In this document: piece by piece, positions 18,576-39,010 of the stretch
How positions within the stretch are numbered: position 1 is the first letter of the stretch
Layout: the number at the start of each line of letters is the position of its first letter
Source of the DNA: Desulfamplus magnetovallimortis
Lineage (GTDB): Bacteria > Desulfobacterota > Desulfobacteria > Desulfobacterales > Desulfobacteraceae
Length of the DNA: 64,000 nt
Assembly (NCBI RefSeq): GCF_900170035.1
Contig: NZ_LT828540.1
Coordinates: 179,392-243,391 of the forward strand
Reading direction: 5' to 3'
The notes under the pieces: model-generated
Database searches by the model: none
Told to the model about the DNA's origin: nothing
The model's input: only the letters and a program-made list of their open reading frames with translations
Translations under genes and position numbers: made by a program

Positions 18576-18628
18576 TTAGGGGGTGAGGTAAGTGGTTAAA
18601 TTATTTAAGACCGATTCATAAATATTTA

Positions 18629-19780: not shown

Positions 19781-19909
19781 TTATGGTATTCCTTATTATA
19801 ATTAGTATTTTATGTAGAGATACTTTTTGAACTCCCCAGAACAAGGCAACACACCTGATTCTATTTGCCTTTGCAGGTGAATTGCCTTGTTCAAGTGTCA
19901 ATTTTATAT

Positions 19910-22057: not shown

Positions 22058-22165
22058 CTTTTCCTATCCTTTCTTTTTCATAAAAAATATGGCATGCTTC
22101 AATGAATTCTGATCCAATCAATTTTTAAAAAGATTCATGAATTTAGTGAAGCTACCTGTTAATAA

Positions 22166-23311: not shown

Positions 23312-23389
23312 TATTTCCTCCATAATATCTTAAAATAATTAATAAAAAATAGTATTAAAACATCAGTAAAAGCAAAATAAAAATAAGGC

Positions 23390-23854: not shown

Positions 23855-24276
23855 TTAGGTTGTGGTTTCAGCGTGTATTGTCAAAAGATTTGGCAGTTTT
23901 TTGCTGAAAACAAGCCCCACCTCATGGACAGTGACCCCTTTAATGCCCCTGTACTTTTCTGCATATCCTTTCTCTTTGATTTGTTTTAGTGCAGGGTTGT
24001 GATGTATTAAATCCATCTCTTTCATAATATCGCCCTCTGCACTACTACCCACACCATTCATATCATTTACACCATCGACACACTTCATAGCCCCCACACT
24101 CTTCTGCTCCACCACCTTTATCTCCATGACATAAATATGCGTTCCCAGCTTTATGGTCATATCCACCTGGCCGTGGTTTGTTATATATTCAGGGATGATC
24201 TCTACATCTAAAGAGCTGAAGAAGGAGTAAAGCACAGATGCATAATAGCCTTCATAGCAAAAAGCTGAATTTTAGG
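23855..24276 (-). pseudogene. C-terminal remnant of an AAA-ATPase-like/PD-(D/E)XK nuclease gene
   Basis: The frame is open from a stop at about 24280 down to 23855 and begins with the family motif FCYEGYYASV, located just before the nuclease domain in intact members. The D...ExK residues are kept (GQVDMTIKL and YVMEIKV), but the entire ATPase domain is missing, and a low-complexity insertion (VDGVNDMNGVGSS) interrupts the domain. It is therefore a broken gene. A matching N-terminal remnant lies on the same strand at 38435-39010, across the 14-kb corrinoid block. Confidence 0.7.
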
Positions 24277-24520
24277 GATTTTTCATGTTAGAACAAATTC
24301 ACCCTGAACCAATACCCGAAATTAAAACTTGACCCTTAAACGGCATTCCTGTATATAAAATTGATAATTAACAGGCAGCAGAAGCTGTCCCCAAGTCAGA
24401 GAGTCGCTATAAGACAGTAGATTAAAAGGATAGATCAAAGCGTAGCAAAAAAGTCTACCATTCAACATAATTAAAATCCGAATATGTATCGGATTTTTTT
24501 GTTATCAACGTTATTATCAA

Positions 24521-24584
24521 AAAGGCCACGAAGGCTGATTTCTTTCCCTATATTGGGAAGAGGTGTCTTCGTGGCCTTTTTTTT
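24521..24584 (+). promoter_or_regulatory. Leader hairpin H4 upstream of btuC-like gene (terminator-shaped)
   Basis: GGCCACGAAG (24524-24533) pairs with CTTCGTGGCC (24567-24576). An inner CTTTCCC/GGGAAG stem sits inside and eight T residues follow. It ends only 19 bases before the start codon at 24604 and contains no open gene upstream to terminate. The outer stem is shared with H1 and H3, and the inner stem is not. No other feature was seen in 24277-24520. Confidence 0.65.
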
Positions 24585-24603
24585 ATTCCGACAAGGAGTT
24601 CTC

Positions 24604-25725
24604 ATGAGTTTGTTCAATGTATCCCATACATCCGAATCCGGTTCTACTTCCATGGACATACCGTTCCGTTTTCCTGGAGTCCGAACTCTGACACCCCGTC
24701 CCCTGAACCTGACGTCCCACCCCCTGACATCCGCCTTTCTTGCTCAGGTGCAGAAAAAACTGAACCTGTTTTTCCTTCTGCTCTTTTTGACAGCGGTGCT
24801 GGGCATCTGGGCTGTTACCCAGGGCGCTTATGACATCAGCCCCCTTGATGTTCTCAGGGCATTGGTCGGAGGAAACGGGCAGACATCTGACATTGTGATT
24901 CTCAATATCCGCCTGCCCCGGATTATTGCGGCACTGGTGGCCGGGTGGGGCCTCTCCCTTTCCGGGCTGACGATTCAATCCCTCTTGAAAAATCCCCTTG
25001 GATCGCCTTCCACCCTCGGCATCAGCCAGGGTGCCGCATTTGGTGCGGCGCTTTCCATTGTGATTTTCGGTGGTCAGGTGCTTTCCGTAACAGCCTTTGC
25101 ATTTGCCGGCTCCATGGGGGCCACGGCCATCATTCTCATTCTGGCACGACTGAAACGGCTTTCCCCGGAAGCGGTTATTCTGGCCGGGGTGGCCCTCTCC
25201 TCCCTTTTTACCTCGGCCACCACCCTTATTCAGTATGTGGCTTCTGAAACCCAGTTGGCCCTTGTGGTGTTCTGGACTTTCGGTGATGTGGCCCGATCGA
25301 GCTGGGGGGAGATCGCTTTGTTGAGCGGAACAGTTGCTGTGGCCTCCCTTTTTTGCATGATCCGTAGGTGGGATCTCAATGCCCTGGCCTCCGGGGAGGA
25401 GTGTGCACGGGGCCTGGGGGTGAATGTGGATCGAATCAGAATTCAGGGGATGATCGCAGCGTCCCTTGTGGCAGCTCTGGTCACAGCCTTTCATGGTGTC
25501 ATTGCCTTTGTGGGACTCCTTGCACCCCATATGGCCCGACGTATTGTGGGGTCGGATCACCGTCTGCTGCTGCCGTTCTCTTCCATCATCGGTGCGCTGT
25601 TGCTGCTTTGTGCCGATACATTGGGCCGGGTGCTGGTGGGGTCGGGTTCTCTACCCGTGGGGGTGATTACATCGTTCATGGGGGCACCCATGTTTCTCTA
25701 TCTGCTCATCCGGGGCTATCGGTGA
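24604..25725 (+). CDS. BtuC/FecCD-family ABC transporter permease
   Basis: About 373 residues with ten predicted membrane segments, typical of importers of B12, haem and ferric siderophores. Family stretches include NIRLPRIIAALVAGWGLSLSG, LKNPLGSPSTLGISQGAAFG, HGVIAFVGLLAPHMARRIVG and LPVGVITSFMGAPMFLYLL. The start at 24604 has a strong AAGGAG; the in-frame ATG at 24484 would put hairpin H4 inside the coding region. The N-terminal ~35 residues are an unusual Thr/Pro-rich extension. The stop overlaps the next gene's start by one base (TGATG). Base composition is richer in G+C than in the surrounding genes. Confidence 0.9.
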   Translation: MSLFNVSHTSESGSTSMDIPFRFPGVRTLTPRPLNLTSHPLTSAFLAQVQKKLNLFFLLLFLTAVLGIWAVTQGAYDISPLDVLRALVGGNGQTSDIVILNIRLPRIIAALVAGWGLSLSGLTIQSLLKNPLGSPSTLGISQGAAFGAALSIVIFGGQVLSVTAFAFAGSMGATAIILILARLKRLSPEAVILAGVALSSLFTSATTLIQYVASETQLALVVFWTFGDVARSSWGEIALLSGTVAVASLFCMIRRWDLNALASGEECARGLGVNVDRIRIQGMIAASLVAALVTAFHGVIAFVGLLAPHMARRIVGSDHRLLLPFSSIIGALLLLCADTLGRVLVGSGSLPVGVITSFMGAPMFLYLLIRGYR

Positions 25726-26503
25726 TGACTGAGGGGCAAATGACACTTGAAAGAAGGCTTGATGTATCGGGCATCAATTTTTCCTATAACAGCCATCCGG
25801 TGCTGTCGGATATCGGTTTTTCCCTTGGGCCCGGTCAGGTGCTGGGCATCCTCGGTGTCAACGGTGCCGGCAAATCCACCCTGCTAAAATGCCTCAATCG
25901 AATTCTGAAACCCCATGCTGGAACCGTAATGCTGGCACAGGAAGACCTGCTCTGCATGACTCCCCGGGAGGTGGCCCGTCGGGTAGGATATGTGCCCCAG
26001 CGTCACACCGAAAGTCGATTGAGCGTCTATGAATCCGTGCTCCTTGGCCGGAAACCCCACATGGGATGGACGGTGTCACAAACGGACTACGACATTGTGG
26101 AAACATTGCTGACACAAATGGGCTGACACATCTGGGACTCAAACGAATGGACGAGCTCAGCGGCGGAGAGGTGCAGAAGGTTATGATTGCCAGGGCTCTG
26201 GCCCAATCCCCCCAGGTGTTGCTGCTGGATGAACCCACCAGTAATCTGGATTTGAAAAACCAGATGGAGGTCATGGGGTTGATCACTTCCGTTGTAAAAG
26301 AGCAGAATCTGTCCGCCATCATCTCCATCCATGATCTGAACCTGGCAGTACGGTTTGCTGATACCTTTCTGTTTCTTCGGGATCATCGGGTGCATTCTCT
26401 GGTTGCAAAAGCTGCGTTAACGGCGGAGACCATTCGTGAGGTGTACGGGGTGGAGGTGCTGTTGGAAAATGTGCAAGGGCATACGGTTGTTATTCCTTTA
26501 TAA
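25725..26503 (+). pseudogene. BtuD/FecE-type ABC ATPase, disrupted by a one-base frameshift
   Basis: The first part (25725-26126) encodes Walker A GVNGAGKST and the Q-loop YVPQRH, then hits a stop after LTQMG. The rest of the same protein resumes in the -1 frame with LTHLGLKRMDELSGGEVQK (signature), LLLDEPTSNLD (Walker B) and SIHDLNLAVRF (switch His), ending at 26503. One missing base near 26120 in ATGGGCTGACAC explains it. No slippery heptamer is visible, so programmed frameshifting is unlikely; a true mutation or an assembly error is more likely. The permease and binding-protein genes on either side are intact. Confidence 0.8.
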
Positions 26504-26530
26504 AAGAATGATTATATTAATTGCAAAATA

Positions 26531-26617
26531 CATATAACGTACATGGCGGATTACCGCCACAATCGAAGGGATGAAAGTCATTTTCAAAACAGGCTGTTAC
26601 GGAGACTTTCATATAAA
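26531..26617 (+). repeat. Dispersed repeat family R2, copy 1
   Basis: It has two hairpins: TGGCGG/CCGCCA (26544-26549 with 26554-26559) and ATGAAAGTC/GACTTTCAT (26571-26579 with 26604-26612), linked by ACAATCGAAGGG. Related copies are at 39044-39130 and 56856-56938 (both inverted) and 63576-63657. It lies between the ATPase and binding-protein genes. Confidence 0.8.
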
Positions 26618-26695
26618 AATACAAAATGTTAAAATATAAAATGTAAAGCACAACGTGCGAAATATAAGAAAACTCTAATACATTAAGGATAAATA

Positions 26696-27850
26696 ATGAA
26701 AACATACCTGAAAACGAAGTCCTCATGGATTGCCATCATTGGAATGTTATTGAGTATGTGGCTGTTTCCCCTTGTTTCAGCAGCTTTTTCAGAAGAAGCG
26801 GTTAAAAGCGATGCTATTGTAAAAACAGACCACATCACCATCACGGATATGGCCGGTCGCACTGTCTCCGTACCCCATGATCCTGCGAAGATTGCCTGTA
26901 TTGGTCCGGGTGCCTTGCGGTTGATTGTCTATCTTCAGGCACAGGATAAAGTGGCTGGTGTGGAAGATATGGAGAAAATGAATCCCGTCGGACGTCCCTA
27001 TTGGCTGGCACACTGGGAATTGGAAACGCTGCCCCGCATCGGGCCGGGCGGCCCAGCCGGCATCAATAAAAAACCGGATATGGAGGCGTTGCTGGCGGTT
27101 AGCCCCGATGTTGTTTTCGTCACCTATATGGATGCAACCCTGGCCGATGATGTGGAGAAAATTCTTGGCATCCCCCTCGTTGTGCTGAGTTACGGGGCCT
27201 TTGCAACTTTTGATAAAGCCGTGTACGAGGCCCTTGAAATTGCCGGCAGGGTATTGAATCGGGAAAAGCGTGCTGCGGCGGTTGTGGCCTATATTGAATC
27301 CCTGCGCACCGATTTGCATAAGCGTACCGGCGATATCCCCGCAGATCAGAAACCGGGAGTATATGTGGGCGGCATCGGTTATCGGGGCGCACATGGAATT
27401 GAAAGTACGGAAGTCTCCTATATTCCCTTGCAATGGAACCATGCCACCAATCTGGCCGAACAGATTCCATCCCGCATCGGCAGCCATGTGTTTGCAGACA
27501 AGGAGATATTGCTTGGCCTCAATCCGGATGTGATTTTCATTGATGGCGGTGGCCTGGCTATGGTCACCGAGGATTTCCGTAAAAAACCGGAATACTATCA
27601 GGCCTTGAAGGCATTTCAGAACCGCCGGATTCATATTTTGCTCCCCTTCAATTTTTACACCACCAACATAGGCACTGCCCTGGCCGATGCCTATGCCATT
27701 GGAAACATCCTGTATCCTGAAAAATTTACTGATCTTGAGCCAGAGCAGAAGGCCGATGAGATTTACACCTTTCTGGTCGGAAAACCGGTTTATGGGGAAA
27801 TGAAAAAGGAGTACGGAACCATCGGGCGGATTGCGCCGTTTTTGGAATGA
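26696..27850 (+). CDS. BtuF/FepB-family periplasmic substrate-binding protein
   Basis: A 384-residue precursor with an N-terminal signal peptide (residues 1-30, ending VSAAFS). It begins its mature part with ITITDMAGRTVSVPHDPAKI, the usual start of siderophore/B12 binding proteins. Later it has KPDMEALLAVSPDVVFVTY and LLGLNPDVIFIDGGGL, the paired helical-backbone lobes. AAGGATAA precedes the ATG. There is no lipobox Cys. It belongs with the permease and ATPase at 24604-26503 as a BtuCDF-like importer. The presence of cbiK and btuR nearby points to a cobalt or corrinoid substrate, but iron chelates cannot be excluded. Confidence 0.88.
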   Translation: MKTYLKTKSSWIAIIGMLLSMWLFPLVSAAFSEEAVKSDAIVKTDHITITDMAGRTVSVPHDPAKIACIGPGALRLIVYLQAQDKVAGVEDMEKMNPVGRPYWLAHWELETLPRIGPGGPAGINKKPDMEALLAVSPDVVFVTYMDATLADDVEKILGIPLVVLSYGAFATFDKAVYEALEIAGRVLNREKRAAAVVAYIESLRTDLHKRTGDIPADQKPGVYVGGIGYRGAHGIESTEVSYIPLQWNHATNLAEQIPSRIGSHVFADKEILLGLNPDVIFIDGGGLAMVTEDFRKKPEYYQALKAFQNRRIHILLPFNFYTTNIGTALADAYAIGNILYPEKFTDLEPEQKADEIYTFLVGKPVYGEMKKEYGTIGRIAPFLE

Positions 27851-27939
27851 AGGTGTCGCAGAGATGGAGCCCTCACAGAAGGGGAGTTCTCGAAGAAAGG
27901 AAGGTGTAGCAAAAAAGGAGCCGCTGCAGAATTGATCCG

Positions 27940-28160
27940 GCTCCTGGCAGGTGAGGGGGCATAAAAAACGGGCATGGGTCACATAGATATCGCCATTTGT
28001 TCCGTGCATGGGATTGGGCAGGCAGATATCCAGTTCCGGAGGCACAGCAATGGAGGCCATCCTCTCACTGCCCAGTACGGCCTGACACCATCCGGCAGCA
28101 AGATGAAGGGGCAGGGCGGGAATCATCCATTCGATTGTGATGCAATGTTCATCATGGCCG
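27940..28160 (-). pseudogene. Fragment of an unidentified Cys-containing protein next to cbiK
   Basis: Directly after the cbiK stop, the minus strand encodes about 75 residues with conserved-looking features: NGHDEHCITIEW, a MIPALPLHLAAGW helix, CLPNPMHGTNGDIYVTHA and CPLTCQEPDQFC. There is no start codon in a suitable place, and the frame then runs antisense into the binding-protein gene, so both ends appear lost. The composition (paired Cys, conserved HGTNGD) suggests the tail of a real protein. The family is not identified. Confidence 0.4.
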
Positions 28161-29015
28161 TTATAAGGGAATCACATCCAGGGCTTCTTTTATATGTCTT
28201 ACAAAAATGCGGCTGATTCCGTCCAGCACCCCAATCCCGTCACGAATAAGAGAGACATCAATTCCCTGCGCTTCAAACGCTGCCTGCCATGAGTCGTCAT
28301 CCCCTGTCAGATCCTCCTGAAAATGAACTCCGGCCACCAGCATGAAAGGGACAAGAAGCACCTTTGAAAATCCGGCCTGCTTTATCCGTTGTACCGTGGT
28401 GTCCATTTCTGGAAACCCCTCTACAACGCCGGTAAAAATGCTATCGGTGCCGTGGATATCTCTCATGATACTCTCCAGGGCAAAGTAGGATGTCCATGCC
28501 GGATGATCGGTACCATGCCCTATCAGAACCACTGCTCTTTTATTGCCAGAGCAATCCTTTTCAGACACATCATTTCCAGAGAAGCCAGTTCCGGAAAAAA
28601 GAGGTTTCATGGCATGGGCAGTATCCATGTAATCTTGCGGTGACGAGAGAAGGGGAAGGCCAAACGATAATCGAATATCCACCCGTCTTCCTTCCGATGC
28701 CAGTCTGTGCAGTTCATGACCACCGATGATATGGAGGGATTGCAGTACAGCCCACGGATGCCCCTGCTGCTGAAGCATCAAGAGAACCTCTGCCGGATCT
28801 TTCAAATCAAGGTTTGTGTTACGTCTCATGGCATGTTTTACCATTCTGGATGAATAGGCCCAGAAAACAGGCTGTTCCGGCATCTCTCTTTTAAAGAGCG
28901 CATCCATCTTCTCATAGGTTGAAAAGGCTTTGGCAGTGGTGCCAAAGGCAGTCACCACAATGGGGATCGCCTCTCTTGTTTCGATATCACGGTTTACGTC
29001 GTTCATCTTTTTCAT
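28161..29015 (-). CDS. cbiK: Sirohydrochlorin cobaltochelatase CbiK
   Basis: A 284-residue class II chelatase for the anaerobic B12 pathway, inserting cobalt into sirohydrochlorin. The first catalytic His lies in IGHGTDHPAW (near residue 163) and the second in VAGVHFQEDLTGDD (near residue 228), matching the two His of characterised CbiK proteins. The N-terminal IPIVVTAFGTTA is the family start. No signal peptide is visible, so the protein is cytoplasmic; periplasmic CbiKP forms of Desulfovibrio carry one. It follows the adenosyltransferase gene by 11 bases. No other de novo corrin ring genes are in the window. Confidence 0.9.
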   Translation of the reverse strand: MKKMNDVNRDIETREAIPIVVTAFGTTAKAFSTYEKMDALFKREMPEQPVFWAYSSRMVKHAMRRNTNLDLKDPAEVLLMLQQQGHPWAVLQSLHIIGGHELHRLASEGRRVDIRLSFGLPLLSSPQDYMDTAHAMKPLFSGTGFSGNDVSEKDCSGNKRAVVLIGHGTDHPAWTSYFALESIMRDIHGTDSIFTGVVEGFPEMDTTVQRIKQAGFSKVLLVPFMLVAGVHFQEDLTGDDDSWQAAFEAQGIDVSLIRDGIGVLDGISRIFVRHIKEALDVIPL

Positions 29016-29026
29016 GTCATCAGCCT

Positions 29027-29548
29027 TTAAAATTCTATCCCTTGCTGGGCCATTACCCCCATTGTGTAAGGATGTTTTATCTCCTGCATCTCAGTCACCA
29101 GATCGGCGGCTTCAATGAGCTTAGCTGGAGCATAGCGACCGGTAACCACCACATGGAGATCCTCTCTTCTATGTTTCAGATGGTTCAAAATATCGTCTGC
29201 TTTCAGGAATCCCAATGTTATCAGGTAGGTTAATTCATCCAGAATGACCATGAAATATTCCGGAGAATTCAGCTGCTCCCTTGCCAGATCCCATCCTTTC
29301 AGGGCCAATAGTTGATCTTTGTCAATATCGTCCGATTGCCAGCTAAATCCCCTGCCGGTGACAAAAACATCAACCAGATCTATATATCGTTCCACCGCAA
29401 AGAGTTCTCCATATGTTTCAGAGCCTTTAATGAACTGGATCAGACAGACTTTTTTATGATGCCCCATGGCCCTGAATGCCAATCCCAATGCTGCCGTGGT
29501 TTTACCTTTTCCATTGCCGGTATTTAAAATCAGTAGCCCTTTATCCAT
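29027..29548 (-). CDS. cobO: Cob(I)alamin adenosyltransferase (BtuR/CobO/CobA type)
   Basis: A 173-residue enzyme with the P-loop NTGNGKGKTTAALG at residues 9-22 and the C-terminal family signature VTEMQEIKHPY followed by AQQGIEF. It adds the 5'-deoxyadenosyl group to reduced corrinoids, which is needed for salvage as well as synthesis. It is in tight order with cbiK. A 319-base gap separates it from the upstream CobN-like gene, holding a stable hairpin (29598-29626), so it may have separate transcription or reduced read-through. Confidence 0.92.
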   Translation of the reverse strand: MDKGLLILNTGNGKGKTTAALGLAFRAMGHHKKVCLIQFIKGSETYGELFAVERYIDLVDVFVTGRGFSWQSDDIDKDQLLALKGWDLAREQLNSPEYFMVILDELTYLITLGFLKADDILNHLKHRREDLHVVVTGRYAPAKLIEAADLVTEMQEIKHPYTMGVMAQQGIEF

Positions 29549-29867: not shown

Positions 29868-32800
29868 TTAATTTTTTCGCCTGAAGCCCCAGAAAAAAAG
29901 TCCCAGGATGAGTAGAATGAACAGTGAAGCTGTCCACTGGATTCCTGATGATGTCATTTCAGTAATATCATCCTGTGGGTTCATATCCTTCATTTTATAT
30001 CCTTCAATCGGTTTTTCCTCTGAAGTATCCTTCGGCTGCTTCTTCTCTTTATTTTCCGATGCTTTTGCCGGGTTATGATTTGTGTTGTTCCCTTGTGGAT
30101 TTTTTACGTGATCTTGATTTTCTGGTTTATCCTCGACCCTATCCTCTGCTTCTGCTGCCATGTCAGGCGATACTGCTGACGCCCCCGGAGGTGATATCAG
30201 GCTATCGGAGAGTTTTTCCAGCAGAGCCTTTCGTTCCGTCACCTGCTGCTCAAGGGGCTTCTTTGCCATCTGTTCAATGGCCAGCCTGAACTTCTCCACG
30301 ACCTCCGGCGACATCATGCCGGGAAGCGATATAATGTTAAACACCATCTGGTTGAGCAGAGGATTGTTACAGGTATGGTCACAGCAGGCCACCCCTTTTT
30401 CCACCACATTCATGGCATATTCGGCAGCCAGTTTCTTTCTCACCGTCTCATCCGCCTGCCAGTAACCCTTACGCACGGACTCCAGCATTCTGGCGGTCAT
30501 GGACTGATAGGCCCAGGGGTTTTCCCGGTTGAAAAAGGACTTGATATCCTGACCGTATTTATCTTCCACATATACTTCGTAACTCTGCTCCCAAAGACTT
30601 TTGTCCACGGCATTGGGCGTGGTCACCTGCCACCCCCACATGTTTTCCATAAACTCGGCCATCTCCCTTGCTCCGGCATAATTTTCTTTTTTCATGCCTT
30701 CAATCCATTTGGGGTTGAGATACCGACTCCGCATTTCCCGACCCAGCGTGGCGGAAAGGGGCTCCACATGGCCCTCTCCCAATGTACTCTGCATGGATAC
30801 GAAAACCTCCGGATCTTTTCCGGAAGCCTTGCGTACGGCCATACTCAGGCTGCCGAGGTATTGAAACATATCATCATTGTCCATGGTGCCGTAAAGATTG
30901 GAAGAGATGGTTTGAACGGTGGCATCAACTGCTCCCAGGTGTTCCCGGTAGGTGCTTTCCATACCTTTTCCCCAAAGCTCTGCGGAGTATCCATAGGACT
31001 GCATCCGTACAAATCCCTGTTCTGCCACAATATCATCTTTTTCCCACAGGCCGCTGTTGCCGGCCAGATCGTCAACTTTGGTGCCATAAGCTCCGGGAGG
31101 CGCACTGTATAGGCGAATCAGGGATAGCTTTTTCGCCTCTTCCGGGGAATATCCCTGGGTGATGAGAGATCTTTCCACATGCTCTGAATGGTTGCGGATA
31201 AAATTATCCAGATCCGTAAGGGTTGCGGCTTTTTTCACTGCCCCGTCCAGTAACAGGGCCACCAGAGAAAAGGTGTCCCGGAACAGGCCGGACATCTGTA
31301 GCAGCACATCAATTCGGGGTCGGTTCAACTCCCTGGCAGGTATGGGAATAACGGTTTTCACCTTATCCCGTTGATCCCAAACCGGCGTCATTCCCATGAG
31401 ATAGAGGGCCGTGGCCACATTTATTCCTTCATCCCGGATGGTTTCCACGGACCAGAGCACCACCCCCACCTGCTGGGGATATTTCCCGTCGTGTTTTTTC
31501 CGGTACGCATCCAGGATATCCCGGGCCGCATTTTTACCGGCCTCCCATGCCTCCTTGGAAGGCACTTTTTCAGGATCAAATGCATAAAAATTTTTTCCCG
31601 TGGGTAGGCTTTCCGGATTGCGGATGGGATCGTTTCCCGATGCCGGAGGGATGTAGCCGCCATTAAGCCCCTGCACCAGGCTGTCAAGTTCTGAGGGGCC
31701 ACATGCCCGAATTTGATCCGTATAGAACGCTTTTGATTTCTCTCCCTTTTCAGCCATGGCCTGGGCGGTTTCGTTCAAAGCATCGTTAGATGGAGAGATT
31801 CCAAAGGTATGCAGGCCATATGGGATCATTTCGGTTTTGAGTTCCAGCAGGTAATGCTCGATCTTCTGAAGGGCATAGCCATCCACTGTCTCCGCTTCCA
31901 ATCGAAGATTCTTGTCCAATCCAAGATCCTTATCCAGGCCCAATCCAATGGTTATTTCCCGAATCCGTTCCAGGCGGGCAGATTTGATTTGATCGGACAA
32001 TGCGGTGTCGTATTCACCAATCAGGGCCGTCAGTGTAGCATACTCCTCATAAATACCCCCTCGTTTAAAAGGGGGCACGGCATGATCAATGACCACAGCT
32101 CTGCCCCGTCGCTTGGCCTGAATTCCTTCCCCCACATCATCCACAATATAGGGATAAAGATTGGGAATATCGCCAATGAGCACTTCCGGAGGACACTTCC
32201 ATGTCAGTCCGGCCTGTTTACCCGGCAGCCATTCGTGGGTGCCGTGGGTACCCAGACTGATCATTGCATCGGGCTGAACCTGTTCCTGAAGCCAATAATA
32301 AAAGGCATTATACTGGTGATGGGGATAGAGGATCGTGCTGTGGTAAAGCTTGTCCGGGTCGTCATTAAACCCCCGAACCGGCTGGGGGGCAAGGATCAGG
32401 TTTCCGAGCCGGATGCAGGGGATGACAAATTTATTATCCTTGACCATGATCCTGCTCTCTTCGGGGCGTCCCCAATCCTCCGTAACCTTCTCCTGAAATT
32501 CTTCCGGGGTTTTGGACAACCATTGACGGTAATCTTCCATATCGATCAGAGCGGCATTTCCCGCCCGGAGTAAACTATCCAGTTCATCCGGTGCCCAGGA
32601 ACCGATATTTCGACCGGATTTAAGTAACAGATCCTTGATGCGTTCCTCGGTGAACTCCCCTTCAATGGCGTACCCTTCGAGTTTAAGACGTTCAATGATT
32701 TTATTGATGCTTCGAAAGACATTGAGATAACTGGCTCCGATATTCTGCTTGCCTGCGCCGTGATTGTAGTACATTAGAAATATTTTTTTATCTCTGTTGG

Positions 32801-34004
32801 ACGTTTGTTTCAGTCCATGCCAGCGGGCAGTCCGCCGGGCCAGCAGTTCAACATGCGGCGCTACATACGTGTAGCGAAAGGCATTTGACTCTTTGGAGTT
32901 CTGAGCTTTGACGTTTGAGTTTTCGTCATCTGCGGCCATGGAATTTTGGTCTTGGGACACGCCTTTATCCTTTATTTTCACACCGATGACCGTCGGTTCA
33001 ACCAGTCCGCTGATTTCCGGGTTGGAAAACTGAAATGCCATTCCCACCGGAGAAATACCTTGGGGACTCTCCAGCCACTCCTCTTTTGAACTGAAAAAGA
33101 GATTCTGGGTATTGAAAATCGGAACATTTGCCTGTTTCAACACCGATAGCAAATCCACCGTGAACATGGAACTGAACTTGAAGGCAAAGCCCGTAATGGA
33201 ACCGAGGTTCCCTGCAAGGGGAGGCGTGCTGATAAGCTGAGTCAAGGTTTTATCCCACCCTTTCATCTCCCGCATCCAGGTCACGGTGTTGATACCCTGT
33301 TTTTCATAGGCCCGAATCAGGGCATCCAGAGCCTCTTTTTTCCCGTCGATAGTAAAAGTGGGGAAAATAACCGTAAGATTCCATAGTTTTCCCTCCTGAA
33401 AACGACCGGATTCTTTATACCACTGTTTGTACTCGGAAAAGGTGGAGAAAAATTCAGGGGCATCCGGGTGATACAGTGCGTTTTCCGGCGGTTTAACCGG
33501 AGGAGCAAAAGTGGTTTTGATGCCCAGATCCCGGTGGGCCAGAAATCGGAGCATCTCCACGATGTTTTCAGCTGAAGTGTAATCATAATATGCTGATATT
33601 TCTGGGTCTATTCGAAAACCGCCATCCAGAAAATCCTGGGTGTGACTGGAACGTCGTACCGCATATATCTGGAGATCGGTTTTCATTTTCTCCCGATTTT
33701 CCAGCAGCCATTCAGCTGGCTGGCTCTGCATTATATCAACCACTGCCACGTCCATCTGGCCAACGAAAATCGAAAAATCGGGTTGCTCCATATCCTTGTT
33801 CGTAAAAATTCGGATATCGGCATCCGGCAGGGTCAATAAGTGTAACGCACGGAGGCAGGTATAGGCATCGGAATCTGAGACAAATAGAGCAATGGATTTA
33901 CCCGTGTTTTCGGCAGAGAGAGAAGCAGGTGTCACGAACCCGATCCAGATCCCAATGGTGTATAAAAGCAGAAAAGCGCCTGTAACGCTAAAAAATGATT
34001 TCAT
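29868..34004 (-). CDS. CobN-like chelatase, exported and membrane-anchored (HmuS-like)
   Basis: A 1378-residue protein of the CobN/magnesium-chelatase H family. Core motifs include SLGTHGTHEWLPGK, PNLYPYIVDDVGEG and AKRRGRAVVIDHA near residues 580-660. Unlike cytoplasmic CobN, it has an N-terminal signal sequence (residues 1-31) and, after a charged low-complexity linker (about 1260-1350), a C-terminal membrane helix ASLFILLILGLFFWGF ending RRKN. The bulk should therefore face the periplasm, away from ATP and CobS/CobT, which are not encoded here. Its neighbours (TonB receptor, DUF2149, ExbB-like, DUF2162) are those I recall for HmuS, the haem-operon chelatase homologue of Bacteroidetes. A short in-frame repeat (GLDKDLGLDKNL) lies in a linker. 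Its start overlaps the receptor gene by 17 bases. Confidence 0.85.
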   Translation of the reverse strand: MKSFFSVTGAFLLLYTIGIWIGFVTPASLSAENTGKSIALFVSDSDAYTCLRALHLLTLPDADIRIFTNKDMEQPDFSIFVGQMDVAVVDIMQSQPAEWLLENREKMKTDLQIYAVRRSSHTQDFLDGGFRIDPEISAYYDYTSAENIVEMLRFLAHRDLGIKTTFAPPVKPPENALYHPDAPEFFSTFSEYKQWYKESGRFQEGKLWNLTVIFPTFTIDGKKEALDALIRAYEKQGINTVTWMREMKGWDKTLTQLISTPPLAGNLGSITGFAFKFSSMFTVDLLSVLKQANVPIFNTQNLFFSSKEEWLESPQGISPVGMAFQFSNPEISGLVEPTVIGVKIKDKGVSQDQNSMAADDENSNVKAQNSKESNAFRYTYVAPHVELLARRTARWHGLKQTSNRDKKIFLMYYNHGAGKQNIGASYLNVFRSINKIIERLKLEGYAIEGEFTEERIKDLLLKSGRNIGSWAPDELDSLLRAGNAALIDMEDYRQWLSKTPEEFQEKVTEDWGRPEESRIMVKDNKFVIPCIRLGNLILAPQPVRGFNDDPDKLYHSTILYPHHQYNAFYYWLQEQVQPDAMISLGTHGTHEWLPGKQAGLTWKCPPEVLIGDIPNLYPYIVDDVGEGIQAKRRGRAVVIDHAVPPFKRGGIYEEYATLTALIGEYDTALSDQIKSARLERIREITIGLGLDKDLGLDKNLRLEAETVDGYALQKIEHYLLELKTEMIPYGLHTFGISPSNDALNETAQAMAEKGEKSKAFYTDQIRACGPSELDSLVQGLNGGYIPPASGNDPIRNPESLPTGKNFYAFDPEKVPSKEAWEAGKNAARDILDAYRKKHDGKYPQQVGVVLWSVETIRDEGINVATALYLMGMTPVWDQRDKVKTVIPIPARELNRPRIDVLLQMSGLFRDTFSLVALLLDGAVKKAATLTDLDNFIRNHSEHVERSLITQGYSPEEAKKLSLIRLYSAPPGAYGTKVDDLAGNSGLWEKDDIVAEQGFVRMQSYGYSAELWGKGMESTYREHLGAVDATVQTISSNLYGTMDNDDMFQYLGSLSMAVRKASGKDPEVFVSMQSTLGEGHVEPLSATLGREMRSRYLNPKWIEGMKKENYAGAREMAEFMENMWGWQVTTPNAVDKSLWEQSYEVYVEDKYGQDIKSFFNRENPWAYQSMTARMLESVRKGYWQADETVRKKLAAEYAMNVVEKGVACCDHTCNNPLLNQMVFNIISLPGMMSPEVVEKFRLAIEQMAKKPLEQQVTERKALLEKLSDSLISPPGASAVSPDMAAEAEDRVEDKPENQDHVKNPQGNNTNHNPAKASENKEKKQPKDTSEEKPIEGYKMKDMNPQDDITEMTSSGIQWTASLFILLILGLFFWGFRRKN

Positions 34005-35895
34005 AACCCACCTTCACCAGTCGTCCGACTTCATAATAGAGATACTGGTTGCTGGCATCTTCCGACATATCGCCGGATACCTGAACGTCGTCATCGAAAA
34101 TATTGTCCACGGCAACGGTCAGATAGCCTTTCCAGAGTCTGTACCTGGAAAAAAAATTCAAAACAGCACTGCTATCCAGATTGCGTTCCCTGGATCTAAC
34201 AACATTGCAATTAACATCCAACGTCAAGGGCTCAGTAAGATAGTTGAGACCCACTGTGGTCTGTAATTTGGGGCCGGTCTGATAGGTTTCTCCAGCAGTA
34301 TCTTCTGCTGTGGGATCGGCCCAGTACCCTGAGGTGTACAAGGAGATATTCTGAAGTTCACCCCCTTGATTTGTAAAAGGATTGATACCGATCTCCCATT
34401 CCACTCCTTTGCTGTCATACTCTCCGGCATTGAAATAGGTGAGCGGGTATCCCTGGGAGCGGTCGATTTCAATTTTCTCCTCATAGGCCATGTAAAAAAG
34501 GGAAAGGCGAAGGCGGAGGGCATTGAGATCATATTTCAGGCCTCCTTCATAGGTCCAACCCTCTTCAGGATCCAGATCTGGATTGCCTTTCAGAAAGGAG
34601 CTATCATAGTAAAGATTATTGAAAGTAGGTGCCCGAAATGCCTTTCCGGCGTTGACAAAAAAATTGAGGGTATTGGTTGCCATATACGTCAGGCCAACAC
34701 TTGGCAGGAACTTATCATAATCTTTGGCCCCGGAGGCCCCGTCAATAAACTGCTCCCGTGCCCCGAAGGTGCCTGTTAGACTATCCAGCAGATTTTTTTT
34801 AAGTTGAAAAAACAGACTATAATCATTTCGATGGTGACTGCCGTACTGGTTGTTGTAGTTTGCCCCCCTGTAAACCCAGTCGGCACCCAAATTGAAATTC
34901 CAGCCTGCCAAGTCAAATTTATAATCTCCTTCCAGACCGGCATTGTAGTTTTTATTTTCATCATCCGGTTCATCCGGATCGGTGTATTCATTCCGCTGCA
35001 TCTCATCGTAGCTACCAAAGAGTTTGCCTTTAAAGGTCTCGCTTTCATAACGGAAATCGGCAAAATTTTTGTAATGCTCCTGTTCGGTTCCTTCAAAGGG
35101 CTTATCACTACTGTCGTAATGCTTTTCAAAAGCACTGGTGTAATAGGATCCCATGTAATCAAAGTAAAGCTGATCAAAGAGCTGTGCATTGAGGTTCCAG
35201 GCATATTTGTCGGTTTCATCCAGATCATAGCGGTATTTTTTGGAAAAACTTCGGGAAATTTCCTCCTGGGAGCCCAGGTGCTGATAATTGAAACCAAGGT
35301 TTATGCCGGGTAAAGAAGTGCCAACACTGTGGTTGTGGTATGCGTTGTTTCCAAATTCCACACTCCCTGTAAAAGCGGTTGTGGCTTGGGTTTTTTTGGT
35401 GATGATATTGATGACGCCGCTCATGGCATCGGCCCCGTAAAGAGTGGATGCCGCCCCTTTGAGGATCTCCACCCGCTCGATCTGATCAAGGGGAATGGTG
35501 TTCAGATCATAGGCATGACCTGCCGCCCCCTGGATGGGGCAGCCGTTGATCAGGATCAGTTCACCATCCTTGATTCCTCGAATACTCAGGGTACTGTTCA
35601 TGCCGCCATGGGAAATTCCCAGTGGAGCAAAGGCCTTGTAGTCAAAGCCGCCGACCCGTTTTAATGCATCGGAAAGATTATTGGCACCACTCTCTTTCAA
35701 TTCCTCAAATGGTACCACCGTGACAAACCGGGGGCTCTCCTTTTCCTTGACGGGAAACCGCTCCGCCGTAACCGTTATGGATTCAAGTTCTGTGATCTGT
35801 TCCTCGGCAGAAGCAGAGAGAAATCCCGAAAACAGGCTGATGAGCAAAAACAGTAGTGTCCAATGGCATGTTCGTAATATGTAGTTACCAACCAT
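33988..35895 (-). CDS. TonB-dependent receptor (BtuB/HmuR-like)
   Basis: About 635 residues. The signal peptide ends near LSASAEE. A TonB box-like ESITVTAERFP is followed by a plug domain with VVPFEELKESGANNLSDAL, LSIRGIKDGELILINGCP and LKGAASTLYGADAMSGVINI, then a 22-strand barrel. The start at 35895 is preferred since AAAGGA precedes it; the in-frame ATG at 35913 has no site. The plug is the BtuB/CirA type, so corrinoid, haem or a siderophore are all possible ligands. Control by a cobalamin riboswitch upstream of the operon favours a corrinoid or cobalt ligand. Translation is probably coupled to the overlapping cobN-like gene. Confidence 0.9.
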   Translation of the reverse strand: MVGNYILRTCHWTLLFLLISLFSGFLSASAEEQITELESITVTAERFPVKEKESPRFVTVVPFEELKESGANNLSDALKRVGGFDYKAFAPLGISHGGMNSTLSIRGIKDGELILINGCPIQGAAGHAYDLNTIPLDQIERVEILKGAASTLYGADAMSGVINIITKKTQATTAFTGSVEFGNNAYHNHSVGTSLPGINLGFNYQHLGSQEEISRSFSKKYRYDLDETDKYAWNLNAQLFDQLYFDYMGSYYTSAFEKHYDSSDKPFEGTEQEHYKNFADFRYESETFKGKLFGSYDEMQRNEYTDPDEPDDENKNYNAGLEGDYKFDLAGWNFNLGADWVYRGANYNNQYGSHHRNDYSLFFQLKKNLLDSLTGTFGAREQFIDGASGAKDYDKFLPSVGLTYMATNTLNFFVNAGKAFRAPTFNNLYYDSSFLKGNPDLDPEEGWTYEGGLKYDLNALRLRLSLFYMAYEEKIEIDRSQGYPLTYFNAGEYDSKGVEWEIGINPFTNQGGELQNISLYTSGYWADPTAEDTAGETYQTGPKLQTTVGLNYLTEPLTLDVNCNVVRSRERNLDSSAVLNFFSRYRLWKGYLTVAVDNIFDDDVQVSGDMSEDASNQYLYYEVGRLVKVGYEIIF

Positions 35896-35977
35896 TCTCT
35901 TTTTTCCTTTCATGTTTAAAATTTGGGGGGAGGTAAATGGAAATGGGTACGTGATTTAAAACCGGTTCCTAAAGGTA

Positions 35978-36337
35978 CTATTCCGGCACATACACCATAC
36001 TTCCATCCTGAAGTTCATAGGCAATACCGAGACGGTGTCCCTTGCCCTTGACACTCTCTTTGCTTACCTTTATGGCCTTCACCGTCTTTCCCTGTTTGGT
36101 GATGATCTCCATCTCCTGTGTCGCTTCATTCTGCTTTACCATCGTAAATGAAGCGTTCTCATTAAACAGATCCTGAAGATGATAGACGCTGAAAATCATC
36201 ATGATCAGGCCCACAATGAAGACAAGACCGATATCAAAGAGATTGGCCACCCCACTCATGGGATCATCATCCCTGAATGCCTGATCCCCGAATCCTTTGC
36301 GGGATTTTCGGATTCTACGTCTGCTCATATATTTCAC
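35978..36337 (-). CDS. DUF2149 protein (ExbD-like position, HmuV-like)
   Basis: A 119-residue protein with a basic N-terminus (RRRIRKSRK), the conserved DPMSGVANLFDIGLVF entry into a single membrane helix (about residues 30-52), and a small C-terminal domain (KVSKESVKGKGHRLGIAYEL) outside the membrane. This topology matches ExbD/TolR, although the sequence family is different. With the ExbB-like protein upstream it may form a proton-driven motor dedicated to this operon. The start could also be at the second ATG (36328). DUF2149 next to ExbB-like and CobN-like genes is a pattern I know from haem operons of Bacteroidetes and from some archaea. Confidence 0.82.
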   Translation of the reverse strand: MKYMSRRRIRKSRKGFGDQAFRDDDPMSGVANLFDIGLVFIVGLIMMIFSVYHLQDLFNENASFTMVKQNEATQEMEIITKQGKTVKAIKVSKESVKGKGHRLGIAYELQDGSMVYVPE

Positions 36338-36407
36338 GGCATCTCCTTATTGGGTTCGGATAGTGGGTTTGTTTCTACTATTGGAGCCGCTACAGATATT
36401 GCGGGAT

Positions 36408-37157
36408 TCATTGGCCGCTCCTGTTATCTGTTTCCATGGGGGAAAGCAGTAGTTCTGTGGCCAATTCCATGTTTTTGATATCTTCTTCAATCCATCTTCT
36501 TCTGAGGGTATAGAAAAAAAAGGCTGAAGTACCGATGGCAAGTCCGGTGACGGTGGTGGTAAAGGCGATAACCAGGTCGGAAGTGAGACGTGTCATATCC
36601 CCCTGTCCCAGGGCGGCAAGACCAGTACCCATTGGGATGAGTGTACCGATCAAACCAAGGGATGGGGCCACTCGAACCAGAATCCTCAGGCGATCGATGG
36701 ATTTCCACAGCTCCAGGGTGGTGGCTTGAAGCATGTTTTCAACGGCCACCTCCATATCGAATGCTCCTTTTCCCCGGGCACCCATCGGTGATTCGTTACC
36801 GGGAGTTGAATTCAATGATTGTATCGAATTTATCGATTTTGTCGAATCTATTGAATTTCTCGCATTTGTGTTTGTAACATATTTTTGAGACATCAGCACT
36901 CTGAGAGCGTTGACATATCGGACAACCCGATGGGAAACCATCCCTTCAGGATTCTCATTTTTAAGGACAGCCGGTAACCTTTGGGGAGGACATTGGGATT
37001 TTTTTAAACGAAACCGCTCCAGCCATTCAGCAAAGAAAGTACCTGAACAGGCAATGATGAAGAGGATCAATACCACCAGCAGAAAAAGCACTGGATAGAG
37101 TAGAGAGGATGAAATGAGATAAATAAAGGTTTTGAGTAAGGCACCAATGTCGGTCAT
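36408..37157 (-). CDS. MotA/TolQ/ExbB proton-channel family protein
   Basis: About 249 residues with three membrane helices. The family core is RVAPSLGLIGTLIPMGTGL followed by DLVIAFTTTVTGLAIG near residues 165-210, the pore helices of ExbB/TolQ. A cytoplasmic loop between helix 1 and 2 contains a short repeat (IDSTKSINSIQSLNS) encoded by a degenerate 9-base repeat at 36810-36860. The start at 37157 overlaps the DUF2162 stop (ATGA) with GGAG just before it. It should use the proton gradient to energise the TonB receptor or the CobN-like chelatase, in partnership with DUF2149. Confidence 0.88.
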   Translation of the reverse strand: MTDIGALLKTFIYLISSSLLYPVLFLLVVLILFIIACSGTFFAEWLERFRLKKSQCPPQRLPAVLKNENPEGMVSHRVVRYVNALRVLMSQKYVTNTNARNSIDSTKSINSIQSLNSTPGNESPMGARGKGAFDMEVAVENMLQATTLELWKSIDRLRILVRVAPSLGLIGTLIPMGTGLAALGQGDMTRLTSDLVIAFTTTVTGLAIGTSAFFFYTLRRRWIEEDIKNMELATELLLSPMETDNRSGQ

Positions 37158-37969
37158 GGTTTTCTCCAAATATGTAAATAGGTGTATGTGAATCCGCTGA
37201 TGAATGTCATGCCCACGCAGGCAATAAACAAAAACAGGTGCTGAATTTGCTGAAAGGGGATTTCAGACGTTGACAGGGAGAGACGGTACACCTTATCAGC
37301 ATCGGCAAACTGAGGCATGATGGTCACGGAGAGGAGGAAATAGGCTGAAATCAACAGCATGGCACTCCCGAGAAGGGCTTCAGGAGAGCTGTTTCGGTTC
37401 CACTTTCCTGCCCCCATGATGAAAAGGGTTAATCCATTTATCAGCAGGAAGCAGAAAAAGAGTAGCAGCATCGTTAGCATGGGCGTGTCGGGAAAACATG
37501 CCGTCATAAATCCCAGGGAGATAAAAATCACCGTGACACAAACCGGGCAGGGGATAACCAGCATCAACCAGGCCCGGGTGTGGCGTTTGTTGGTATACTC
37601 ACCTTGAAAATTGTTGTCTGAATCACTTTGAAGGTTGGGTGTTGGCTCTCCTTGAAAATTATGTTGAGAATGGCGAAGCAGATGCAAACCCCACAGAGTC
37701 AGCAAACCCGCCATGACAAGATGAATCAGCATGCCGGATTGAATGAACGTCTGAATTGTATTCATATGTCGCACCAGATCAATCCTTGCCAATAGCTGTT
37801 GAGAGAGGATAAAAAGAGAGAGGTAGGCAAGGAAAAAGAGAGCCAACACCATGGCCCTGCGTTTTCCCGATGGGGTTTTAGAGAGGTAATAATGGAGGCC
37901 AAGTCCGCTTTTGATGGCAAAAATGCCGATACTGAACAGGATGCCGAGAATTAAACTTTTACAAATCAT
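37154..37969 (-). CDS. DUF2162 membrane protein (putative transporter, HmuT-like position)
   Basis: A 271-residue integral membrane protein with about seven hydrophobic segments. The conserved features of the family include GLGLHYYLS near the N-terminus and MLVIPCPVCVTVIFISLGF, a Cys-Pro-containing membrane segment near residue 145 that could take part in metal handling. The start has AAGGAGAACGC before it. It is the first gene after the cobalamin riboswitch, so it heads the operon that runs on through the ExbB-like, DUF2149, receptor and CobN-like genes. The function of DUF2162 is unproven. Confidence 0.82.
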   Translation of the reverse strand: MICKSLILGILFSIGIFAIKSGLGLHYYLSKTPSGKRRAMVLALFFLAYLSLFILSQQLLARIDLVRHMNTIQTFIQSGMLIHLVMAGLLTLWGLHLLRHSQHNFQGEPTPNLQSDSDNNFQGEYTNKRHTRAWLMLVIPCPVCVTVIFISLGFMTACFPDTPMLTMLLLFFCFLLINGLTLFIMGAGKWNRNSSPEALLGSAMLLISAYFLLSVTIMPQFADADKVYRLSLSTSEIPFQQIQHLFLFIACVGMTFISGFTYTYLHIWRKP

Positions 37970-38030
37970 GCGTTCTCCTTGATCTTATGGAATTCATGGG
38001 GGCCTTTTCAGGATTTTTTTCGTTTTTGGC

Positions 38031-38071
38031 AAAAAAAAATCCCGAACCGACACATAATGTCGATCCGGGAT
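38031..38071 (-). terminator. Intrinsic terminator of the cobalamin riboswitch
   Basis: On the minus strand a hairpin (ATCCCGGA...TCCCGGAT type, 38039-38071, with TGTCG/CGACA inside) is followed by nine T residues (38039-38031). It lies between the riboswitch and the DUF2162 start and would stop transcription when the riboswitch is ligand-bound. Confidence 0.75.
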
Positions 38072-38128
38072 TCCCGTTTTTATCCAACAGATCATGAGCC
38101 TCTCTCCGTCCTCGAGATAATAGGCTCT

Positions 38129-38298
38129 TGTTCAGGCAGGTCTTCTGACTTCCGGATCATCCTACTCAAGAGCGTCTTCCCAATCCCAAAAGCAATGGAT
38201 CAGTGACGTATATGCTCTTTTCGTCCCCGGTTACAGCGACGGGCTCGTTCCCGAATTTCACGGGATTCCCTGTTAGGCTTTTTAAGGCACCTGAACAA
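38129..38298 (-). promoter_or_regulatory. Cobalamin riboswitch
   Basis: On the minus strand the conserved blocks appear in order: the closing stem (TTGTTCAGG with CCTGAACAA at the two ends), the AACAGGGAATC core, CGGGAACGAGCCCGTCGCTGTAACC (split here: GCTGTAACCGGGG), and the 3' GGAAGTCAGAAGACCTGCC box. The spacing is that of the B12 element of Rfam. It lies 160 bases upstream of DUF2162 and is followed by an intrinsic terminator, so it acts by attenuation. It implies that the operon downstream is repressed when adenosylcobalamin or a related corrinoid is plentiful. Confidence 0.93.
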
Positions 38299-38309
38299 TA
38301 TGAATTGGG

Positions 38310-38339
38310 TTATTAGCGTATTTGCATTATGATTGTCAA
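38310..38339 (-). promoter_or_regulatory. Possible promoter of the riboswitch operon
   Basis: TTGACA on the minus strand (38339-38334) is followed after 17 bases by CTAATA. The -10 match is weak, but the position just upstream of the riboswitch closing stem fits. Confidence 0.35.
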
Positions 38340-38434: not shown

Positions 38435-39010
38435 CTATATGTAGTCATAAAATTGAGAATTTCTGTCTTGTCCTTTGAGCACGGAGTAAAGGTTTTTCAG
38501 GCCATCCCGCACCTCTGCGGCAATGTCACTATTATCAATATTGTCAAGGATGGGTTTGTCATATTCATCCACCAGAACCACAACCTTTTGATTATATTTT
38601 TTGGAGCAGTTCATTATGAGGTCTTCAAAGAGCCCGGGAATGTCATTGTCATGGGAAGGCGCCACATTCAATAGCTCTTCATTGACTTTGATCAGTTTAC
38701 GAATACGATTTTCGAGTTCACTACGGCTCTGGAGAACAGCACCTGCAAAATCAATAAGAATGACAGGAAATGTTTGGCTCCAATCCCATTTATCGTAAAT
38801 ATAAAGCCCCTTGAACAGTTCTTTGTTGCCTTGGAAAATTTCCTTGAGCGTATCCACAAACAGGCTTTTACCAAACCTTCTGGGCCTGGAGAGGAAAAAA
38901 CGTCCCGCATGTTTTACAAGGTCCCAGGCCATGGGGGTTTTATCCACATAAACCATGTTTTGGTTTTTTATATTTGCAAGTGTATTGACACCAAGCGGTA
39001 AATTTTTCAT
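38435..39010 (-). pseudogene. N-terminal remnant of an AAA-ATPase-like nuclease gene
   Basis: About 185 residues of normal family sequence: YVDKTPMAWDLV, the P-loop-like RPRRFGKSLF and the Walker B VVVLVDEYDKPILD. Homology stops after SVLKGQD, where intact relatives continue into the FVFLTGVSKF segment; six unrelated residues and a stop follow. The entire nuclease domain and part of the ATPase are missing, so the gene is broken. It shares strand and order with the C-terminal remnant at 23855-24276, though about 200 middle residues are missing from both. Confidence 0.75.

Follow-up and report, generated by a model that had tools for sequence, protein, structure and literature searches.

A window of 64,000 nucleotides from Desulfamplus magnetovallimortis (contig NZ_LT828540.1, positions 179,392 to 243,391 of the forward strand) contains, on its minus strand, an operon for a TonB-dependent receptor and a CobN-like metal chelatase preceded by a cobalamin riboswitch. 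An initial annotation, made from the DNA letters alone, had compared this operon with the heme uptake operon hmuRSTUV of the Bacteroidetes. In window coordinates and in the direction of transcription, the leader and the five genes are as follows.

38118 to 38309, minus strand: cobalamin riboswitch aptamer (RF00174, 111.1 bits, E-value 5.7e-27, model positions 1–189)
About 38031 to 38072, minus strand: intrinsic terminator (expression platform), a hairpin with a T run, 61 bases 5' of the DUF2162 gene
37154 to 37969, minus strand: DUF2162 inner-membrane protein of 271 residues (PF09930, 143.5 bits)
36408 to 37157, minus strand: ExbB/TolQ/MotA-like proton-channel protein (PF01618, MotA_ExbB, 48.7 bits)
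35978 to 36337, minus strand: DUF2149 protein of the HmuV family (PF09919, 99.9 bits)
33988 to 35913, minus strand: TonB-dependent receptor (PF00593, TonB_dep_Rec, 141.1 bits; PF07715, Plug, 87.2 bits)
29868 to 34004, minus strand: membrane-anchored CobN-like class I chelatase of 1378 residues (PF02514, CobN-Mg_chel, 1022.7 bits)

The gene order given by the initial annotation could be confirmed by Pfam searches, in which all five proteins exceed their cut-offs. The two overlaps it reported are also present: the DUF2162 and ExbB-like genes share an ATGA (37157–37154), the receptor and CobN-like genes 17 bases (34004–33988). The ExbB-like protein probably starts at the ATG at 37157 rather than at the TTG at 37169 listed for the longest open reading frame. 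The proposed riboswitch passes the covariance-model check on the region 38100–38310. The match is full-length, compares with a gathering score of 31.5 and is the only Rfam match at gathering threshold within the window. The R1 model, built from the riboswitches of the loci analysed here, gives 175 bits for this element, itself a member of the building set. The terminator hairpin folds at −30 kcal/mol (z-score −6.1). Judged from its sequence, the riboswitch is predicted to bind adenosylcobalamin and to switch expression in dependence on vitamin B12.

The CobN-like protein carries an N-terminal and a C-terminal membrane anchor as HmuS does (Kyte–Doolittle maxima of 1.86 and 2.22 in a simple hydrophobicity test, used without a topology program), and is probably a periplasmic protein held at both ends. 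Hydrophobic stretches were found at the N terminus of 43 and at the C terminus of 42 of 45 chelatases, taken from DUF2149 loci and from a search for related loci which returned 6 relatives; among 23 chelatases from loci without DUF2149, each stretch occurs once. The set of 45 includes one contig twice (L061 and L087) as well as L089, whose contig shows no DUF2149. Two of the three proteins lacking the C-terminal stretch come from the duplicated contig, where the frame runs into the receptor; the third, L089, stops 82 bases before the contig end. The frame in question (L061, 11973–17330; L087, 9875–15232) has 1785 residues and comprises an anchored chelatase, a C-terminal transmembrane segment and receptor-like sequence with a signal-like stretch of its own. 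L110, an unlinked chelatase with a C-terminal stretch, groups in the anchored clade described below.

The best PDB match of the CobN-like protein is HmuS (9d26, 492 bits), followed by CobN (420 and 410 bits) and ChlH (404 bits). The cut-offs of the CobN equivalog models are missed; none of the nine models listed reaches its cut-off, the best score being 898.7 as against 1619 bits. A careful tree was computed for 35 rows of the 81-row alignment; these were chosen by us and leave out the long-branched L065. In this tree, three HmuS and 20 other anchored chelatases form one clade (support 100/100), apart from the CobN references, BchH and the unlinked Desulfobacterota proteins. Within this clade, HmuS has its own branch (100/100) and the non-HmuS remainder holds together at 91/91. 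The D. magnetovallimortis chelatase, whose relation to heme-specific HmuS the initial annotation had singled out for a check, lies outside HmuS proper, in a group of 15 (100/100) that is joined next (88/94) by the chelatases of Trichlorobacter and Runella (98/97 together). Larger quick trees, which omit L087, L123, L182 and some unlinked rows for being near-copies or long branches, agree in outline; the place of L065, on its long branch, is unsure.

HmuS is a heme de-chelatase that removes the metal (PMC12583661, PMC13227078). In it, the ligands His538 and His1209 face each other, Met79 and His254 belong to the heme site, and one insertion is rich in Met (PMC12583661). The HmuS motif LSLDHxxEFMGG with His1209 is not found in the D. 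magnetovallimortis protein, which reads MDNDDMFQYLGS and has Asp at this site; the GTHG motif is retained. His254-Gly-Arg (HGR) is replaced by Phe-Lys-Phe, and the Met-rich domain IV insertion is absent, the distance from GTHG to LPTGK being 213 residues with two Met as against 320 with 13 and 428 with 35 in two HmuS. A Met aligns with Met79, but in a weak N-terminal alignment; one HmuS (Aureibacter) has Arg there.

The same Asp prevails in the relatives. It occupies the His1209 site in 39 of the 45 chelatases, with Gly in five and Phe in one, and in all 27 of a second set (25 proteins of the phylum's other classes plus two encoded on plasmids), in which L182 repeats L090 of the first. Among the references, three CobN have Asp, while three HmuS and one BchH have His. 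The five Gly-type chelatases (DTDG or DVDG; L054, L063, L076, L077 and L041, 4148–8149) are under B12 riboswitches and possibly represent a further functional class.

To see how far B12 control extends, as the initial annotation had suggested, riboswitches were counted around related operons; Rfam was run on the window, 46 whole genomes and 19 loci. DUF2149 was detected in 46 of 291 genomes of the host's class (41 over cut-off). A same-strand B12 riboswitch lies within 16 kb upstream of 39 of the 48 over-cut-off genes, a measure of proximity and no proof of one transcript; about 0.6 would be expected by chance (at least 314 riboswitches in about 209 Mb). Seven of the remaining nine genes are cut by a contig end, and the true exceptions, L049 and L065, are both outside the D. 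magnetovallimortis clade. Five matches below cut-off (L082–L086) proved to be ExbD-like neighbours of other ExbB genes and were excluded from the 48. Riboswitches downstream (7 of 48) or on the opposite strand (2 of 48) do not provide a symmetric control, because only the upstream side was extended (11 loci).

In the phylum sample, 34 of 297 genomes contain DUF2149 over cut-off, with 37 matches, of which 33 were examined, the rest being three already covered and one 45-residue piece. These 33 loci outside the class comprise 18 with a same-strand riboswitch upstream, 10 that are cut, one fragment and four (L157, L160, L172, L173) for which none was found upstream, Rfam included. Within the D. 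magnetovallimortis clade, all 50 scorable chelatase rows (of 55) have a same-strand B12 riboswitch upstream. The tree used here was built with a simpler model, and its 57 bearing and 12 lacking rows need four changes. L088 was scored via the same contig seen in L059; L040, L048, L057, L153, L156, L159, L162 and Diaphorobacter are unscored, their upstream side being cut. Tandem RF00174 elements precede the receptor gene in Trichlorobacter lovleyi, and a riboswitch of 40.2 bits stands directly before ExbB–DUF2149–CobN on a Comamonadaceae plasmid. No riboswitch was found in the stretches examined of three Bacteroidota HmuS operons, the Runella cluster, Pseudoalteromonas and Diaphorobacter. Most related operons with a visible upstream side have a B12 riboswitch, and with an element that passes its covariance model and a chelatase outside HmuS, the initial proposal withstood these checks.

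Two genomes deserve separate mention. On the Azospirillum brasilense plasmid NZ_CP012918.1 (L100/L146), a His-type CobN–ExbB–DUF2149 operon is followed directly by a B12 riboswitch of 118.8 bits, which precedes genes for a binding protein, a permease and a receptor; nikR is nearby. Genome G226 (L049, L058, L105–L110) has 14 PF02514 matches and at least 24 B12 riboswitches, and several of its unlinked chelatases adjoin receptors.

In maps of 47 DUF2149 genes of the class, ExbB adjoins 46; 43 have CobN and 35 a receptor within 6 kb, 43 have DUF2162 within 2.5 kb, and 19 have CbiK within 8 kb. Three of the four genes without CobN within 6 kb (L038, L046, L069) are on contigs that end nearby; the fourth, L059, has CobN about 10 kb away. 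A CbiZ domain occurs in 20 of 44 class loci (D. magnetovallimortis, itself without CbiZ, being counted); 19 of these encode it in a single frame together with BtuF, the protein usually having about 675 residues. The BtuF–CbiZ fusion was also found in 14 of the 33 loci outside the class. The five N termini examined are all hydrophobic, so that export is likely. Corrinoid binding and trimming by such neighbours, as their domains suggest, would be hard to square with a heme system. L050 has a riboswitch, but DUF2162 is missing from its neighbourhood; neither riboswitch nor DUF2162 is present in L172 or L065. An apparent DUF2149–BtuF–CbiZ fusion in L090 (same contig as L182) was rejected, the joint being a run of unknown bases. 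L124 (G212:C1:158500-168000) has a riboswitch–receptor–DUF2162–ExbB–CobN–CbiK cluster with a CobN frame of only 399 residues, in which DUF2149 was not found; it is perhaps a decayed copy.

Next to the operon, the window contains further genes related to corrinoids.

29027 to 29548, minus strand: CobO/BtuR corrinoid adenosyltransferase (PF02572, 209 bits), co-directional, about 320 bases downstream of the CobN-like gene
28161 to 29015, minus strand: CbiK class II cobaltochelatase paralogue (PF06180, 172.9 bits), signal peptide not seen by eye
24484 to 27850, plus strand: BtuC-, BtuD- (frame interrupted) and BtuF-like genes (FecCD, ABC_tran in two frames, Peripla_BP_2)

The initial annotation had listed all of these as flanking genes. 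This holds for the co-directional CbiK and adenosyltransferase genes; the BtuCDF-like genes require a correction, since they are on the opposite strand, no riboswitch was found for them (Rfam, window) and the frame of the BtuD-like gene is interrupted once. In this ABC ATPase (25650–26503, plus strand), positions 1–80 of the ABC_tran profile lie in one frame and 90–137 in another, which reflects either a pseudogene or an assembly error. A minus-strand open reading frame of 445 residues (26789–28126) was rejected as a gene, having no Pfam match and being antisense to the BtuF-like gene. Two tandem pairs of a TonB receptor and an FmdE-domain protein are located at 16462–23323 (minus strand), with no riboswitch; one of the FmdE proteins has a hydrophobic N terminus. 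More distant flanks contain an AAA-ATPase_like piece of 191 residues (38435–39010, minus strand) and a PDDEXK_9 piece of 126 residues (23855–24235, minus strand), which may be remnants.

The D. magnetovallimortis genome (97.3% completeness) has a single gene each for CobN, DUF2149 and DUF2162, and four B12 riboswitches. The other three riboswitches precede BtuCDF genes accompanied by tetrapyrrole methylases, a gene of the ThiC family that may encode a lower-ligand synthase, and another CbiK (327 residues); three full-length CbiK matches were found in all. The methylases and CbiK behind B12 riboswitches make corrinoid synthesis by early cobalt insertion likely, and the CobN-like protein is probably not needed for it. 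A search of the genome for an AAA+ partner gave no TIGR02442 match over cut-off and seven weak ones below, the CobS and CobT models not being run singly. For the receptor, NCBIfam models score 156.6 (TonB-siderophore), 142 (TonB-B12), 127.9 (PRK10641 BtuB) and 119.5 bits (TonB-hemin), all below cut-off, and its PDB matches are CirA, PqqU and BtuB (74–71 bits). Its substrate is not told by profile models.

With hmuYRSTUV of Bacteroides and Porphyromonas the operon shares the TonB receptor, a doubly anchored CobN-family protein (in one clade with HmuS, 100/100), the ExbB-like protein and DUF2149. HmuY (no match among 18 neighbouring proteins), HmuT, His1209, HGR and the Met-rich insertion are absent, whereas DUF2162, Asp at the His1209 site and the B12 riboswitch are added. 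An identity of DUF2162 with HmuT was rejected (2.6 bits with a 43-sequence DUF2162 profile, hhalign probability 0.7%), so that the initially proposed likeness to hmuRSTUV extends to R, S, U and V and not to T. Operons of hmu type without HmuY behind a cobalamin riboswitch have been reported for Bacteroidetes, with a role in cobalamin metabolism suggested and no mechanism given (PMC10100974); the idea is therefore not new in outline. Compared by description rather than by sequence, they share CobN-like and hmu-like genes. DUF2162, BtuF–CbiZ and the active-site change are not mentioned for them in the accessible text of PMC10100974 and PMC6460266. The latter, which cites Rodionov 2003, has BtuS as a protein predicted to be anchored on the periplasmic side.

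On plasmid pSZ77 of Trichlorobacter (Geobacter) lovleyi, a receptor–DUF2162–ExbB–DUF2149–CobN cluster lies beside corrinoid synthesis genes and has its own ExbB–ExbD–TonB set. For this cobN–TonB cluster, which lacks CobS/CobT, a corrinoid-linked role was predicted (PMC3403914); the tandem RF00174 elements were found here, the word 'riboswitch' being absent from the accessible text of that paper. The CobNST cobaltochelatase shares PF02514 and the GTHG-type and DxDD-type motifs, while the D. magnetovallimortis chelatase is anchored, probably periplasmic and without a TIGR02442 partner over cut-off. For Chlorobaculum tepidum, where a TonB receptor gene adjoins the chelatase genes, a cited speculation has cobalt inserted into exogenous cobalamin (PMC8620254). 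The accessible text of PMC545781 lists B12 elements in six delta-proteobacteria and has no occurrence of CobN. CobN homologues outside the known cob pathways are numerous, and their job is described as unclear (PMC12583661 for archaeal and other clusters, PMC3403914 for T. lovleyi). A literature search, outside which most subscription journals lay, found in the accessible texts no mention of a chelatase driven by protons, the Asp/His split or the BtuF–CbiZ linkage.

The inner-membrane position of the operon differs by branch: it is taken by HmuT in the heme operons, by DUF2162 in D. magnetovallimortis and by a protein with DsbD_2 and NicO matches below cut-offs in Runella. In 43 DUF2162 sequences, PCPxC, Lys20 and Met204 are invariant and one His is near-invariant (41 of 43). 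A PDB profile search with DUF2162 gave no match, none of 210 Foldseek matches of its weak model had E ≤ 0.001, and no relation to the Runella protein was detectable. The Runella core (L094, R. slithyformis plasmid NC_015693.1) consists of receptor–ExbB–DUF2149–CobN between hypABF and hypCDE. The protein in the DUF2162 position carries HAFEADH, a motif of the form HX4DH, which we take to be a nickel/cobalt signature, and the cluster is a possible nickel branch. The swapping of this position between branches suggests an engine for stripping, with each branch using a membrane protein of its own to handle the product.

The ExbB-like protein qualifies as a channel protein of the ExbB type by PF01618 over cut-off and by conserved threonines: Thr176 and Thr206 are invariant (49 of 49) and presumably have a role in the pore. 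DUF2149 has a single helix long enough to span the membrane (residues 26–58 in a low-confidence model) and a short C-terminal domain. Asp35 in the transmembrane helix is found in 45 of 45 sequences of the class set, with Glu in Runella, and in our view resembles ExbD. AlphaFold models of DUF2149 and DUF2162 (three sequences each) reach a predicted local distance difference test score of 55 and 61.

The initial annotation left open whether this pair serves the receptor or the chelatase, and neighbourhoods favour the latter. The clusters of L045, L048, L072, L133 and L093 (Trichlorobacter) contain or adjoin separate ExbB–ExbD–TonB sets. The Comamonadaceae plasmid has no receptor annotated in a 14-kb stretch, the Azospirillum ExbB–DUF2149–CobN run lacks a receptor gene (one follows 4.3 kb further on, behind the riboswitch), and CobN lies no more than about 4 kb from DUF2149 in each of the 10 plasmid records that match DUF2149. 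PF02514, PF09919 and PF09930 all match Methanosarcina acetivorans, an archaeon, which has no outer membrane. The separate sets, the receptor-less runs and the archaeal co-occurrence suggest that ExbB–DUF2149 drives the chelatase, an assignment we hold to be slightly better than even.

We propose that the operon probably serves, under repression by cobamides, to salvage a cobalt-containing tetrapyrrole, for which a corrinoid is the most likely candidate. That it encodes a periplasmic chelatase under B12 control is very probable, and there is good reason to expect a corrinoid or cobalt rather than heme as its substrate. Heme is unlikely because the chelatase lies outside HmuS proper, HmuS-specific residues are missing, B12 control is conserved and BtuF–CbiZ or CbiK are neighbours in many relatives; the substrate suggested by the initial annotation is likewise favoured by the clade-wide riboswitch, the CobN-type Asp and these same neighbours. 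When adenosyl-cobamide is scarce, the riboswitch would let RNA polymerase pass the terminator, to go by its structure and family. The receptor would carry the substrate into the periplasm, where the doubly anchored chelatase would act on the metal, with a CobN-type Asp possibly taking the role of the porphyrin-type His. The ExbB-like protein and DUF2149 would form a proton-driven motor, replacing the AAA+ rings (CobST, ChlID) of the cytoplasmic CobN and ChlH. As a guess, DUF2162 might be the route through the inner membrane for the product, possibly Co(II), or for electrons supplied to it. Removal of the metal comes close to an even chance and is judged likelier, by analogy with HmuS, than insertion, which is rather unlikely.

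Several observations weigh against this proposal. The best receptor model is of the siderophore type, and in chemical terms an intact corrin does not readily give up its cobalt. To our knowledge there is no biochemistry for any Asp-type member. Five of the 45 chelatases have Gly, and the motor-linked Azospirillum chelatase is of His type even though a B12 riboswitch lies next to its operon. The 23 unlinked chelatases have Asp in 11, His in five, Cys in four and Gly in three, so that Asp is not unique to the D. magnetovallimortis branch. The Runella core lies among [NiFe] hydrogenase genes without a riboswitch, and being of Asp type it means that Asp does not prove cobalt. For the motor, a PDB profile search with DUF2149 gave no relevant relative and one chance-like match (E 0.38), its structural model is poor and no structure backs a chelatase motor. 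The archaeal comparison covers family matches rather than gene positions, and of M. jannaschii and M. acetivorans only one has a DUF2162 match over cut-off. HmuU/HmuV have been taken as the TonB energiser (PMC10100974, PMC12583661).

This published view would make the ExbB-like protein and DUF2149 a mere variant ExbB–ExbD pair energising the receptor. It agrees with the likeness of HmuV to ExbD in sequence and predicted structure (PMC10100974), with the MotA/TolQ/ExbB membership, with Asp35 and with the receptors near 35 of 47 DUF2149 genes. We consider it improbable, if a serious alternative, given the separate ExbB–ExbD–TonB sets, the runs without a receptor gene, the archaeal presence and a CobN linkage (43 of 47) that is tighter than that of the receptor. 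HmuV has also been described as without homology to a known family, and an effect of HmuT, U or V on HmuS activity was left possible (PMC13227078). A heme-iron operon of hmu type that happens to be under a B12 riboswitch would account for the shared core genes and the best PDB match; it is very improbable in view of the features of hmu that are missing, the separate clade, the conserved B12 control and the CbiZ and CbiK neighbours in relatives.

The chelatase might also work forward in the periplasm, inserting cobalt into imported corrinoids that lack a metal or carry the wrong one. The Asp is that of true CobN, whose chemistry is insertion, and the C. tepidum speculation (PMC8620254) is of this kind. 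This is unlikely, as it assumes free periplasmic cobalt, the nearest relative of known activity removes metal (PMC12583661), and three CbiK and the tetrapyrrole methylases behind a B12 riboswitch make late insertion probably unneeded for synthesis. In a metal supply system, the core would strip cobalt (D. magnetovallimortis) or nickel (Runella) from chelates or tetrapyrroles other than corrins, and the exchangeable inner-membrane protein would import the ion for CbiK or hydrogenase. The Runella core with its HAFEADH protein, the invariant Cys and Met and near-invariant His of DUF2162 and the CbiK neighbours fit such a system, and B12 riboswitches often control cobalt transporters. Yet only one Runella locus is available, ion import by DUF2162 is putative, this protein has neither a detectable relation to HmuT or the Runella protein nor a fold match with its weak model, and BtuF–CbiZ points to corrinoids; we regard metal supply as quite unlikely. 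Corrinoid salvage with a motor-driven chelatase remains the preferred reading.

A large branch of CobN homologues is now tied to B12 control, membrane anchoring, corrinoid-salvage genes and a dedicated proton-channel pair, and a single residue, His1209 or Asp, separates the sampled HmuS from the D. magnetovallimortis branch. As a tentative and somewhat doubtful generalisation, there may be a third way to power class I chelatases, in which a proton motive force motor of ExbB-like protein and DUF2149 mechanically drives an anchored periplasmic chelatase. The B12-controlled branch would remove or insert the cobalt of corrinoids, with exported CbiZ trimming corrinoids in many relatives, and the heme (hmu) and perhaps nickel (Runella) branches would share the engine and use other inner-membrane proteins. 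If the motor assignment is true, a metal chelatase would run on proton motive force instead of ATP.

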